In this document: positions 1-11,589 of the stretch, in pieces
Layout of the letters: each line of letters starts with the position of its first letter
Position numbering within the stretch: position 1 is the stretch's first letter
The notes under the pieces: generated by a model
Database searches by the model: none
What the model saw: only the letters and a program-made list of their open reading frames with translations
What the model was told of the DNA's origin: nothing
From: Streptomyces katrae
GTDB taxonomy: Bacteria; Actinomycetota; Actinomycetes; Streptomycetales; Streptomycetaceae
Direction of reading: 5' to 3'
Length of the DNA stretch: 11,589 bases
Assembly (NCBI RefSeq): GCF_000717655.1
Contig: NZ_JNZY01000077.1
Span: 1-11,589 of the forward strand
Translations under genes and position numbers: made by a program

Positions 1-9
1 GGCAAGTGA
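1..9 (+). CDS. 3' end of a further small secreted protein gene (Gly-Lys-stop)
   Basis: Only the last two codons and the stop are inside the window: GGC AAG TGA, giving Gly-Lys-stop. The same nine bases end the complete small secreted protein gene at 4155-4163, and the terminator that follows here (28-80) is clearly homologous to the one following that gene. The likeliest reading is that a paralogue of the 141-residue secreted protein lies immediately to the left and ends here. The nine-base match alone would be weak; the matching terminator carries the argument. No more of the protein can be seen. Confidence 0.55.
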   Translation, partial: GK

Positions 10-27
10 CAACCACCCACCCCAACC

Positions 28-80
28 CGCCCCACACAGCAGACGCCGGAGAGGCCCACCGCCCCTCCGGCATCCGCATG
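28..80 (+). repeat. 3' module repeat, left copy
   Basis: Aligned by eye with 4175-4228, this stretch is identical at 46 of 54 columns, with one single-base gap. It starts in the C-rich run after the stop codon and runs through the terminator hairpin to the CCGCATG just past it. Beyond base 80 the similarity stops. The intervening bases 10-27 do not align convincingly with 4164-4174. Confidence 0.75.
42..74 (+). terminator. Hairpin terminator of the left-flanking gene copy
   Basis: The core stem is GCCGGAG (45-51) with CTCCGGC (65-71). An A-C mismatch (52/64) follows, then GGC/GCC closing a CCACC loop (56-60). Outside the core, C44 and A72 do not pair but GA/TC (42-43/73-74) do. There is no T-run, as is usual for actinobacterial terminators. 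It is a weaker version of the perfect 15-bp stem at 4190-4222. It lies between this plus-strand gene end and the convergent PfpI-family gene. Confidence 0.6.
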
Positions 81-315
81 CACCACGACAACCCACGGGA
101 CGGCGATCTGAACCGGCCGTCGCCCCGCCTGGTAAGGCCGACGGGCGCGGGAGACCCGTTCCCATCCCGCGCCGTACGCGGAGCAGGTCCGGCGGCAGCT
201 CGCCCTCGAGGGCGAGGCCCGCGTCCGCGAGCTCCGCGCCGAGCGCCGGGGCCGTCATCGCCGCGCGAACCTCGTCCCACGACCCAGGATCCGGCCACCA
301 CGGGGGAGTTCGGCG
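81..315. other. Intergenic stretch without a supported gene; possible coding relic
   Basis: I find no gene with a convincing start, RBS and family resemblance here. The minus frame that continues past the PfpI-family stop stays open to the window edge. From about 306 down to 155 it reads like coding sequence (WWPDPGSWDEVR, then ATG at 258-256, then LEGELPPDLLRVRRG) before turning into low-quality codons. The plus frame from 136 also stays open and reads as an Arg/Glu-rich helix. High GC makes both weak evidence. A degraded gene tail is possible but not assignable. Confidence 0.3.
141..175 (-). terminator. Candidate hairpin downstream of the PfpI-family gene
   Basis: An inverted repeat pairs ACGG(G)CGCGGGA (141-152, one bulged G) with TCCCGCGCCGT (165-175) around a 12-nt loop, giving an 11-bp GC-rich stem. 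It lies about 140 bp beyond the stop of the minus-strand PfpI-family gene and between two convergent genes, so it could terminate either. No T-run follows on either strand. It could also be an incidental GC-rich repeat. Confidence 0.35.
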
Positions 316-3492: not shown

Positions 3493-3572
3493 GATCGGAA
3501 GCTAGCACGCGTTCCAGCGCATTCCCAGGCTGCCGGACCCGCGCCGCCAGGCTTTACCAAGATCGATTCTCG

Positions 3573-3604
3573 GCGTCAAGCCACGTATTCGAGTGGCGTG
3601 ACGC
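3573..3604 (+). promoter_or_regulatory. Conserved interrupted palindrome (operator-like) upstream of the secreted protein gene
   Basis: The arms GCGTCAAGCCAC (3573-3584) and GTGGCGTGACGC (3593-3604) are complementary except for one A/G position, around the 8-bp spacer GTATTCGA. The whole core is identical in the second copy, while flanking bases differ, which suggests constraint on the site. A dimeric DNA-binding protein could recognise it, or it could fold as RNA if transcribed. Its distance from the start codon (about 134 bp) fits an operator or activator site. Confidence 0.6.
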
Positions 3605-3641
3605 ACGTACTCCCGTCGGGTTTATTTGAAGTACGCCCTCA

Positions 3642-3657
3642 CCGGGGAAAACCCCGG
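3642..3657 (+). promoter_or_regulatory. Conserved small hairpin CCGGGG-AAAA-CCCCGG
   Basis: A perfect 6-bp GC stem closes an AAAA tetraloop. The other copy (11567-11582) keeps the stem and changes only one loop base (AAAC). It lies about 80 bp before the start codon, after a conserved GGTTTATT-like stretch that may be part of the promoter, so it could form in the 5' leader RNA. No transcription start can be assigned from sequence alone. Confidence 0.5.
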
Positions 3658-3664
3658 AGGACAA

Positions 3665-3689
3665 AGGGCCGGAATAAACCCCCGGCCTT
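3665..3689 (+). promoter_or_regulatory. Second leader hairpin before the secreted protein gene
   Basis: GGCCGG (3667-3672) pairs with CCGGCC (3682-3687), extended by a G-U and an A-U pair, around the loop AATAAACCC. It lies 48 bp before the start codon. The other copy is cut off by the window end, so conservation cannot be judged. Together with the hairpin at 3642-3657 it would give a structured 5' leader. Confidence 0.4.
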
Positions 3690-3737
3690 ACTGCGGGGCG
3701 GAATACGAACCCTTTTTACACCGAATGGAGAATTACC

Positions 3738-4163
3738 ATGTTCGAGCTCTTCACGACCCGTCGTATCGTTCTGGCCGGAGCTTCCCTGGCGCTGGTCGGT
3801 GGTGGCATCGCCCTCCCCGCGACCGCCATGGCCGCGCCCACCGCCGCCCCGCAGCAGGCCGTCACCCTCCTCCCCCAGGACAGCGCCGACGGAATCGGTA
3901 CCGGCGGCGACGCCAACGCCGAGAACACCACGGTCGGCGGCGAGGCCACGGGCGGCAACGCGAGCACCGGTGTCGGCAACTGCAAGGGCAAGTGCGAGAT
4001 CAAGACCGGCAACGCCACCGGCGGCAACGCCAGCGCCGACGCCATCAACACCGGCGACGCCACCGCCGTAGGCGGCGACGGCACCGGCACCGGCGGCCAG
4101 GTCAACAAGCAGAGCATCAAGAACCAGGTCAAGGAAAACCTGAAGCAGAAGCTCGGCAAGTGA
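3738..4163 (+). CDS. Small secreted Gly/Asn/Thr-rich repeat protein
   Basis: This 141-residue protein belongs to no family I can name. It has a clear signal peptide: MFELFTTRR, then a hydrophobic core (10-29), with likely cleavage after the Ala-x-Ala at 30-32. The TRRIVL segment loosely resembles a Tat motif. The mature part has two similar low-complexity halves rich in TGG, GGNAS and TGDA units (about 54-80 and 90-120) around a short basic loop NCKGKCEI (81-88), whose Cys82 and Cys86 are the only cysteines. The tail (121-141) is a Lys/Gln-rich, probably helical segment ending LGK. GGAG at 3727-3730 is well placed for the ATG at 3738. It has its own leader and terminator, so it is probably monocistronic. 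Parts of its flanks recur at both window ends, suggesting paralogues. A surface or matrix role is possible but unproven. Confidence 0.85.
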   Translation: MFELFTTRRIVLAGASLALVGGGIALPATAMAAPTAAPQQAVTLLPQDSADGIGTGGDANAENTTVGGEATGGNASTGVGNCKGKCEIKTGNATGGNASADAINTGDATAVGGDGTGTGGQVNKQSIKNQVKENLKQKLGK

Positions 4164-4174
4164 GGGCGGGCAAT

Positions 4175-4228
4175 CGCCCCCACACCGCGGAAGCCGGAGA
4201 GGCCCATGGCCTCTCCGGCTTCCGCATG
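4175..4228 (+). repeat. 3' module repeat, internal copy
   Basis: This is the counterpart of 28-80, starting in the C-run after the stop codon and ending just after the terminator. Both the stem and the flanking CACAC and CCGCATG bases are shared, so the match is more than two unrelated terminators looking alike. Confidence 0.75.
4190..4222 (+). terminator. Strong terminator of the secreted protein gene
   Basis: This is a perfect 15-bp inverted repeat: GAAGCCGGAGAGGCC (4190-4204) against GGCCTCTCCGGCTTC (4208-4222), with a CAT loop (the innermost pairs may open). It begins 27 bp after the stop codon and is preceded by a smaller hairpin GGGCG/CGCCC (4164-4168/4175-4179). There is no T-run. It separates the gene from the convergent TetR gene and could serve both. 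Confidence 0.85.
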
Positions 4229-4290
4229 GCCCCACTGTCCCTGGAGCCAGTAGACGATGCCGACTGCCATGCCGGCTCCATGCGGCGCAA

Positions 4291-4932: not shown

Positions 4933-4950
4933 GGGGGTTCCACCCTCCGG

Positions 4951-4979
4951 TTGCAATACGGACCGGCGGTCCGTATCTT
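4951..4979 (+). promoter_or_regulatory. Predicted sigma-70-type promoter of the SnoaL-like/NmrA-like operon
   Basis: TTGCAA (4951-4956) and TATCTT (4974-4979) are separated by exactly 17 bp, each matching four of six bases of the housekeeping consensus. The spacer is almost entirely the first palindromic operator, so a bound TetR protein would block polymerase directly. The start of transcription would fall near 4986, about 46 bp before the ATG at 5032. Confidence 0.6.
4956..4976. promoter_or_regulatory. TetR operator 1 (perfect palindrome)
   Basis: The arms ATACGGACCG and CGGTCCGTAT are perfectly complementary around a single central G (4966). A 21-bp perfect palindrome beside a TetR gene is very likely its operator. 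It overlaps the -35/-10 region of the divergent operon. Confidence 0.85.
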
Positions 4980-4991
4980 TCCGAGGGAGAA

Positions 4992-5008
4992 GCGGACCGC
5001 TGGTCCGC
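4992..5008. promoter_or_regulatory. TetR operator 2
   Basis: GCGGACC (4992-4998) and GGTCCGC (5002-5008) flank GCT. The shared half-site CGGACC/GGTCCG and its spacing are the same as in operator 1. The centres (4966 and 5000) are 34 bp apart, a little over three helical turns. It lies just past the predicted transcription start, where binding would reinforce repression. Confidence 0.78.
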
Positions 5009-5031
5009 ATCGTACGGGACGGAGGACCCGC

Positions 5032-6354: not shown

Positions 6355-6783
6355 ATGCACGCCCGGCTCCGGCGTCGCGTCGAAGCGACGCGGCAGGCAC
6401 GGGAGGTGCCGGACGCCGGTGTGCTGTTCACCGGGGACCTCGCCGAGACCGGGCAGTTCGCCATCTTCCCGTGGTTCCCGCCGTACGACACGGACGTCTC
6501 CGGCGTGCGCTGGCTCGGGGTGATGGACCGCCTTGCCGCAACCGCACCGCGGGTGGTGGTTCCCGGTCACGGCGAACCCGGCGGCGCGCAGGTGCTCACC
6601 GGCGTCCGCGACTACCTGTGCGAGCTGCGCGACGAGACCTGGCGGCGGCGTGACTCCGCGATGGGCGAGGCCGAGATCGTCGCCGAGGTCCGGGCGCTGC
6701 TGATCGAGCGGCATCCGGAGTGGGCCGGGCGGGAGTGGATCGAGCGCGGCATCGGATGCCTGTGCGCCGAGCACGCCGTATGA
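6355..6783 (+). pseudogene. 5'-truncated metallo-beta-lactamase-fold hydrolase
   Basis: The 142-residue reading frame matches only the C-terminal half of an MBL-fold hydrolase. It has GVLFTGDLAE (22-31) with metal-bridging Asp28, then WLGVMDRLAATAPRVVVPGHGEPGG (53-77) with the last metal His72, then the C-terminal helices. The N-terminal half with the HxHxDH metal motif is absent: bases just upstream belong to the NmrA-like gene, which ends 10 bp before. Residues 1-18 are Arg-rich and unlike the family, so the break is probably between about 6357 and 6410. No convincing SD is present (only GGCGGGG). It cannot form the usual two-metal site and is most simply a gene remnant. Confidence 0.82.
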
Positions 6784-11181: not shown

Positions 11182-11478
11182 TCATGCCTCCACGGGGACC
11201 GCCATCCGCACCGCGGGCGAATCACCGCCGGGACGGTCAGCCGTCGAAGTGGGTCGGGTCCAGTCGATGGGGAGCCCGGCCAAGGGGGCGAGGGCGCTTC
11301 GGTGGGTGGCATCCGCCGACGCCTCGTACGCTCGGCCGTCCTCGGCGCCTACCTGCACGACAACGCCCGGGCCGACGTAGAAGCGGGTGGAAGTCCAGGG
11401 CAGAAGGGCCGCAGCGGCACGGGGTGCAGCGCATCGCAGGGCCGAGTCGCCCTCGGGGCGTCCGCACCGGCCGGGCTT
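11182..11478 (-). pseudogene. Start-less coding fragment of unknown family
   Basis: A minus-strand frame with strongly G/C-biased third positions runs open from 11478 to a TGA at 11184-11182. It reads RFYVGPGVVVQVGAEDGRAYE, later LAPLAGLPIDWTRP, and ends VRMAVPVEA. It looks like the C-terminal part of a real protein but has no ATG, no RBS and no recognised family. An in-frame stop (11481-11479) closes it just where the repeat at 11483 begins, so the 5' part seems to have been replaced by the repeat. Its stop lies 34 bp before the oxidoreductase GTG on the same strand, so the two may once have been co-transcribed. A short gene starting at an internal GTG cannot be excluded. Confidence 0.5.
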
Positions 11479-11498
11479 CTATCAAGATCGATGCACCT

Positions 11499-11528
11499 CG
11501 TCAAGCCACGTATTCGAGTGGCGTGACG
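11499..11528 (+). promoter_or_regulatory. Conserved interrupted palindrome, right-hand copy
   Basis: CGTCAAGCCAC (11499-11509) pairs with GTGGCGTGACG (11518-11528) except for one position, with the same spacer GTATTCGA as at 3585-3592. The arm is one base shorter on the outside than in the internal copy because the flanking base differs. Confidence 0.6.
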
Positions 11529-11566
11529 CCCGCTCCCCCACACGGTTTATTGGAACTACGCCCCCA

Positions 11567-11582
11567 CCGGGGAAACCCCCGG
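11567..11582 (+). promoter_or_regulatory. Conserved small hairpin CCGGGG-AAAC-CCCCGG
   Basis: The 6-bp stem is the same as at 3642-3657, and the single difference is in the loop. This pattern is expected if the stem, rather than the exact bases, is what matters, although one loop change is slim evidence. Confidence 0.5.
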
Positions 11583-11589
11583 AAAACAA

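Follow-up and report, generated by a model that had tools for sequence, protein, structure and literature searches.

A recurring secreted-protein cassette

The window analyzed here is a complete contig (G000:C77) of 11,589 bases, from a genome of 8,582,897 bases in 151 contigs that is 99.77% complete. It contains an intact cassette, in which a conserved upstream element is followed by a gene for a small secreted protein and by a terminator-like hairpin, and both of its ends carry truncated copies of the same cassette (Table 1). The sequence-only reading had deduced this arrangement from two pairs of repeats, and both pairs were recovered. Positions 11483-11589 align with 3558-3664 without gaps and with 89 of 107 positions identical (BLAST E 2e-32), including the reported 31-nt identical core, which starts at 3574 and 11499; no exact direct repeat in the window is longer (maximum of 17 nt in 30 mononucleotide shuffles). 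Likewise, positions 30-80 are 86% identical to 4178-4228 over 51 nt (E 1e-14). The window opens with GGC-AAG-TGA, the Gly-Lys-stop of the gene at 3738-4163, followed by the cassette hairpin, and its right end corresponds to the cassette upstream region. The second conserved element of the intact cassette appears to resemble a promoter -10 sequence. The hairpin at its 3' end is designated terminator-like irrespective of any T run.

Table 1. Positions of the intact cassette and of the two truncated cassette copies in the window.
Feature	Position	Strand	Remarks
3' end of cassette copy A	1..99	+	last codons Gly-Lys, stop TGA at 7-9
Terminator-like hairpin of cassette copy A	39-77	+	
TACCAAGATC, family-specific element, left limit of homology between copies	3555..3564	+	from copy alignment
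28-bp dyad GTCAAGCCACGTATTCGAGTGGCGTGAC, proposed operator of the intact cassette	3575..3602	+	
GGGTTTATTTGA, family form of the second conserved element	3618..3629	+	fixed spacing from dyad
Gene for 141-aa secreted Gly/Asn/Thr-rich protein	3738..4163	+	
Terminator-like hairpin of the intact cassette	4187..4225	+	self-complementary arm; kept in own-genome copies
TATCAAGATC, family-specific left element of cassette copy C	11480..11489	+	
28-bp dyad of cassette copy C	11500..11527	+	sequence identical to 3575-3602
CGGTTTATTGGA, second conserved element of copy C	11543..11554	+	gene would be past contig end

The genes between the cassettes are ordinary. They encode a DJ-1/PfpI-like protein (just under the cut-off), an ABC exporter, a glyoxalase-like protein, a TetR regulator, a SnoaL-like protein, a RibD-C reductase, an S13 carboxypeptidase and a flavodoxin-fold protein; for one of the ten window proteins scanned apart from the cassette protein, no family matched. 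Between the divergent TetR and SnoaL-like genes, at 4948-5015, lie the inverted repeats ACGGACCGGCGGTCCGT and GCGGACCGCTGGTCCGC, which are probably TetR operators; Rfam gave chance miRNA matches there. By eye, the frame at 6358-6783 resembles a C-terminal piece of a metallo-beta-lactamase fold without the N-terminal part.

Cassette copies in the genome and the assembly

A genome search with the window protein, as the sequence-only reading had suggested, identified six intact full-length copies (one each on C77, C27, C37 and C10, and two on C12), in addition to two promoters at contig ends. The five other proteins are 76-92% identical to the window protein, and the alignments to the C77 copy span about 620-690 nt (e.g. 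3553-4164 with C37 and 3551-4220 with C10), the flanks in the fetched stretches being unrelated. The proposed count of two or three copies therefore holds for the window, which has three same-strand positions (one intact and two cut by the contig ends), but it is too low for the genome, which has eight family promoters; nor are the copies confined to roughly 12 kb, since they are found on several contigs. At most three mismatches being allowed, the genome has eight matches to the family-type dyad of the 31-nt core, all of them at family promoters, whereas a looser form of the dyad does precede other genes. The latter result widens the finding and does not refute the observation of a repeated cassette.

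The ends of several contigs coincide with cassettes. The left end of C77 is identical over 99 nt to the right end of C10, its right end is identical over 99 nt (117/118) to the right end of C24, and C27 and C47, which open with a LuxR 3' end and not with a cassette (see below), have exactly their first 99 bases in common. These three pairs are what would be expected as the remnant of a 99-mer assembly graph at unresolved repeats and, because exactly 99 bases are identical, two more copies, near-identical to each other, have probably been collapsed in the assembly. The most natural order would be C24-cassette-C77-cassette-C10, which places C77 between direct repeats; alternatively, C77 may be tandem or circular. 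Contigs of BR123 and NRRL S-87 likewise stop within cassettes, and cassettes may account for assembly breaks at these genes. Recombination at the copies, which had been anticipated, is plausible given that they cluster largely by strain in the protein tree (see below) and that two of the contig-end pairs are identical over 99 nt. A larger related secreted-protein frame, containing repeats with Cys pairs, lies on the opposite strand between the two small copies of C12 (L021:5123-6019); related larger frames are also seen between small copies in S. spinoverrucosus, AP-93 (with one stop in the matched part) and NRRL S-87, and beside small copies in BR123.

The secreted protein family

The precursor starts with an RR-motif signal sequence ending near AMA-AP (by eye), continues with a low-complexity Gly/Asn/Thr stretch and ends in a basic C-terminus; Cys82 and Cys86 are invariant in 45 aligned sequences. 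Searches of Pfam and NCBIfam returned no family for the window protein. The AlphaFold2 model computed from the 45 sequences has very low confidence (pLDDT 42.7), with a single helix at 125-139 and no other structure. Our guess of a role at the cell surface or in the matrix is based on secretion and on this apparent disorder.

The family is rare. It was found in four of 295 genus genomes at E 1e-6, counting the own genome and one partial match, and in three of 392 genomes at E 1e-15 in a second, overlapping draw. A large protein database contained 51 family proteins, and those with a legible organism are from Streptomyces. Two relatives are encoded on linear plasmids (NBC_01001 and NBC_00868), one of them covering just 67% of the query. 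A phage origin of the cassette was considered and rejected, as no relative was found among viral contigs and phage records.

In a tree of 55 proteins, the ten strain groups together take nine changes, against a shuffled mean of 23.4. Eight of the ten are each single and two are not, 23 of the 55 rows belong to no strain group, and bootstrap support is not settled; single orthologs are also shared with other strains (e.g. own_C12b with NBC_00069). One BR123 protein was entered twice (BR123_2 and P0043), and the alignment and tree omit 12 of the 51 database matches (P0002, P0004, P0027, P0042 and P0044-P0051), which had cut-off lengths or no named source. The pattern would fit amplification by lineage with some homogenization.

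A composite promoter element

Upstream of the family genes, an alignment of 24 elements, taken from the family copies of the own genome, S. spinoverrucosus, AP-93, BR123, NRRL S-87, G042 and the two linear plasmids, presents three conserved blocks: TAYCAAGATC, the dyad, and a third one resembling GGGTTTATTTGAAGTACGCCCTCACCGGGG. AP-93 contributes three elements for four gene copies, one copy following another at 61 nt without an element of its own. TAYCAAGA occurs in 17 of the 24 family elements, at most 32 nt ahead of the dyad, and in 2 of 4800 shuffled ones. This left block was tried as part of a wider regulon and rejected: T[TC]TAYC is present in only one of 40 other upstream stretches, and the block is hence family-specific.

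The more general form of the element comprises the 28-bp dyad, with half-sites GTCAAGYCMC, followed after 15 or 16 nt by GGGCKYAMTKGA, and it lies about 90-290 nt upstream of script-chosen start codons. A search of both strands with the dyad alone, allowing two mismatches, gave 31 sites in the own genome against 8 for the reversed control, with corresponding values of 20 and 10 in G319, 16 and 7 in G322, 17 and 12 in G257, 13 and 11 in G042, and, with fewer sites than the control, 9 and 13 in G153. Because of this high background, the composite pattern was used instead, the second block lying at a near-constant distance in most of the 26 dyad sites read. The strict composite pattern matched 43 times in 23 of the 295 genus genomes and its reverse not once; all matches are 55 or 56 nt long, though lengths of 53 to 57 were allowed. 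Positions left free in the pattern are nonetheless conserved (G11 in 39, A12 in 33, T15 in 33 and C17 in 34 of 39 sites), which means that the motif was not produced by the query itself.

The family itself has a variant of the second element that falls outside the strict pattern by two or three mismatches. The own genome has 16 sites, of which 14 share one spacing (at most three mismatches; control 0) and two, on C24 and C61, have the other. Half of the 16 are family promoters, and the remaining eight precede other genes (on C2, C5, C10, C11, C13, C24, C30 and C61); the proteins on C11, C13, C24 and C30 match the family protein weakly (E 0.004 to 0.4), chiefly in the signal sequence. The proposal that the copies are co-regulated is thus well supported, since a form of the shared upstream element precedes other secreted-protein genes at fixed spacing.

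Genes downstream of the promoter

The genes following 40 distinct sites were read (36 of the 43 strict matches, seven not being included, and four sites from BR123 and NRRL S-87). Classified by eye, they comprise 25 small proteins with a signal sequence, five membrane-anchored proteins, four SbnA-like and three Pls/PosA-like proteins, and three unclear cases. The one SbnA-like representative scanned scores above the NCBIfam cut-off, and the Pls/PosA-like representative, the stretch of which is cut by the locus end, below it. A DUF6777 protein adjoining the C10 copy also has a dyad. In G218 (L267:6020-9001), divergent SbnA-like and Pls/PosA-like genes, each with a dyad, lie about 3 kb from a LuxR gene, and this is possibly a poly-diaminopropionate locus.

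A candidate regulator at the LuxR/SpoIIE locus

In S. spinoverrucosus, a gene for a 76-aa GerE-domain protein lies about 2.8 kb from a cassette, past a gene for a PAS-GAF-SpoIIE phosphatase. The stand-alone LuxR protein P0052 (76 aa) has a GerE domain at residues 17-71 (47.1 bits against a cut-off of 23.5, E 2e-12) and neither a receiver nor a ligand-binding domain; no close characterized relative was found in the libraries scanned, the best NCBIfam matches being far under their cut-offs. The own C27 opens with the 3' end of a close LuxR relative, 1.2 kb from the cassette, and C47 opens likewise. The shared LuxR 3' end (L148:1-156 and L285:1-156) is identical over 99 nt and similarity stops a few bases past the stop codon; the LuxR gene itself seems to be duplicated in the own genome.

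Of the 295 genomes, 38 have the LuxR gene, among them 21 of the 23 that harbor the strict promoter, where about three would be expected (hypergeometric 9e-20, uncorrected for phylogeny). At E 1e-20, LuxR is unmatched in the other two promoter genomes, G040 and G042. Conversely, 17 LuxR genomes are without the strict promoter, ten of them also without a dyad at the locus read. The LuxR loci were read at 40 of 42 places, covering all 38 genomes and leaving out the second place of G285 and the own C27, which would add one dyad-bearing locus (1.2 kb away). Using a dyad matrix built from 39 dyads, some of which lie inside loci later scanned with it (e.g. G218), 19 dyads of at least 21 bits were detected in 15 of the 40 loci, and the same 352 kb reversed gave none above 12 bits; seven of the genomes with a dyad-bearing LuxR locus had been missed by the strict pattern. 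No dyad was found in the stretch fetched at the other 25 loci, nor directly upstream of luxR at any of the 40.

According to the gene maps, read by eye, a SpoIIE-type gene adjoins luxR in 23 of the 40 loci, about 16 of which also have a kinase gene. Dyads are present in 15 of these 23 loci and in none of the 17 without a SpoIIE-type neighbor. Since all 15 dyad loci hold a SpoIIE-type gene, the dyads are physically linked to the entire SpoIIE-LuxR locus, and LuxR was chosen as its probable acting gene by domain type. The commonest order is SpoIIE, LuxR, kinase and secreted proteins, with a dyad at a Gly-rich secreted protein about 3.5 kb away. Six promoter genomes (G230, G034, G012, G106, G273 and G164) have the LuxR gene without an adjoining SpoIIE gene. 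In G101 and G275 (L276:8048 and L296:7924), a dyad lies upstream of a Ser/Thr kinase gene near LuxR, and the kinase itself may hence belong to the regulon.

Proposed mechanism and alternative explanations

The reading we favor, with a probability of about 0.58, is that of a regulon for secreted and surface products, linked to LuxR/SpoIIE, of which the cassette would be a self-contained and amplified branch, with a LuxR dimer as the likely ligand of the dyad; this probability was lowered from 0.60 because all 15 dyad loci are of the SpoIIE type. The cassette would be a transcription unit complete with composite promoter, small secreted protein and terminator, and its family the amplified branch of a wider Streptomyces regulon. 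The dyad would most likely be bound by a dimer of the stand-alone LuxR/GerE protein. With the YAMTKG stretch taken as -10, 20 or 21 nt would lie between the two, placing the dyad center near -46 and its right half over the -35, such that a bound dimer would adjoin RNA polymerase, as a class II activator does. This geometry is like that of class II activation by LuxR-type proteins; repression by LuxR is the alternative to activation. The SpoIIE phosphatase and the neighboring kinase would presumably feed in the signal, and gene conversion confined to the homologous unit would best explain the identity of the collapsed copies.

The most substantial objection is that the dyad may be read by another factor, either a regulator of another kind or a sigma factor that uses an unusual promoter, and that the LuxR gene only co-travels with it. 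The two promoter-positive genomes without a LuxR match, a co-occurrence uncorrected for phylogeny, the linkage of dyads solely to loci in which a SpoIIE-type gene is also present, and the possibility that the GGGCKYAMTKGA block is a dedicated sigma promoter all point that way. We consider it a real but rather unlikely option, given a co-occurrence of 21 out of 23 that includes the six genomes with LuxR and without SpoIIE. The shared element could alternatively act as a structured, riboswitch-like RNA leader, in keeping with its distance from the start codons and the inverted repeat inside it. This was rejected as highly improbable: the five Rfam matches in the window, one of them over the terminator hairpin (4176-4229), are all under the gathering score, there is no Rfam match at 3555-3664 or 11472-11589, and variable positions of the dyad arms do not covary, pair 5/24 being complementary in none of 39 sites, which favors recognition of DNA over an RNA hairpin.

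Two further explanations concern the origin of the copies. The cassette, of about 690 nt, might be a mobile copy-paste unit that inserts whole with its own promoter and terminator aboard, as its sharp limits of similarity between unrelated flanks and the relatives on the NBC_01001 and NBC_00868 plasmids could suggest. Moreover, the left flank of the own C27 copy is syntenic with S. spinoverrucosus C20 (L136:13824-15010), where the gene map has no family gene thereafter. This origin is nevertheless unlikely, as neither a terminal inverted repeat nor a target duplication was seen by eye at the aligned limits, and no pair of occupied and empty sites was found among 61 genomes, of which only the own one matches both window flanks in one piece; in addition, the left part of the cassette is regulatory, since the dyad and second element also precede other genes. 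The copies could instead be ordinary old paralogs, in which upstream similarity is residual common descent and silent on regulation. Homology throughout the family and the orthologs shared between some strains would agree with this, yet the element precedes non-homologous genes (SbnA-like, Pls/PosA-like and DUF6777) at fixed spacing with a control of 0, and we give such an account scarcely any credence.

Starting from the regulon reading, a bolder model may be outlined, which we offer as speculation that is probably wrong in at least some part. In Streptomyces, a stand-alone LuxR protein, a SpoIIE phosphatase and a kinase would use a single composite promoter to turn on a variable coat made up of disordered secreted proteins and poly-diamino-acid enzymes; in certain lineages, the unit of promoter, gene and terminator would have become a self-dispersing, self-homogenizing cassette that generates strain-specific sets of surface proteins.

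Comparison with known systems

Word-based searches of limited extent in the open-licence literature returned no description of these features. Within the reach of these searches, the novel features are the secreted family, the composite promoter and its link to the LuxR/SpoIIE locus; the underlying logic, in which a regulator governs a regulon and a gene family has several copies, is already familiar. The analysis defines a precise cis-element and lists its target genes, and it puts forward a candidate regulator and a secreted-protein family that is as yet unnamed.

Chaplins and rodlins are small secreted Streptomyces proteins that occur in several copies. The window family is also small, secreted and multi-copy, but it is Gly/Asn/Thr-rich, has an invariant Cys pair and matches no Pfam or NCBIfam family. 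Among regulators, GerE is a stand-alone LuxR protein of the GerE-domain type, and P0052 similarly consists almost solely of a GerE domain, although its NCBIfam scores set it apart from characterized relatives in the libraries scanned. BldM and WhiI possess LuxR/NarL-type DNA-binding domains. In the parts of the source consulted, their regulons resemble the one proposed here in that regulators bind short sites before many genes, BldM and BldM-WhiI sites being given as TCACcCgnncGgGTGA and TGnnCCGnnCGGGTGA with a 16-bp consensus (PMC4125116). The dyad described here, in contrast, spans 28 bp with its own type of half-site, and the candidate is a 76-aa protein without receiver domain; identity with BldM group I or II targets was rejected, as the published sites differ by eye from the dyad counts (PMC4125116). 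RsrR was likewise discarded, since the GTCAAGTC match in the portion of PMC5015018 consulted sits within a primer and not within a dyad motif. Finally, genes like those for the Pls/PosA poly-diamino-acid synthetases and the SbnA diaminopropionate synthase, as described in the consulted parts of PMC10522769 and PMC9205021, are found here under the same composite promoter as the window family, which differs from them in being a secreted protein and not an enzyme.
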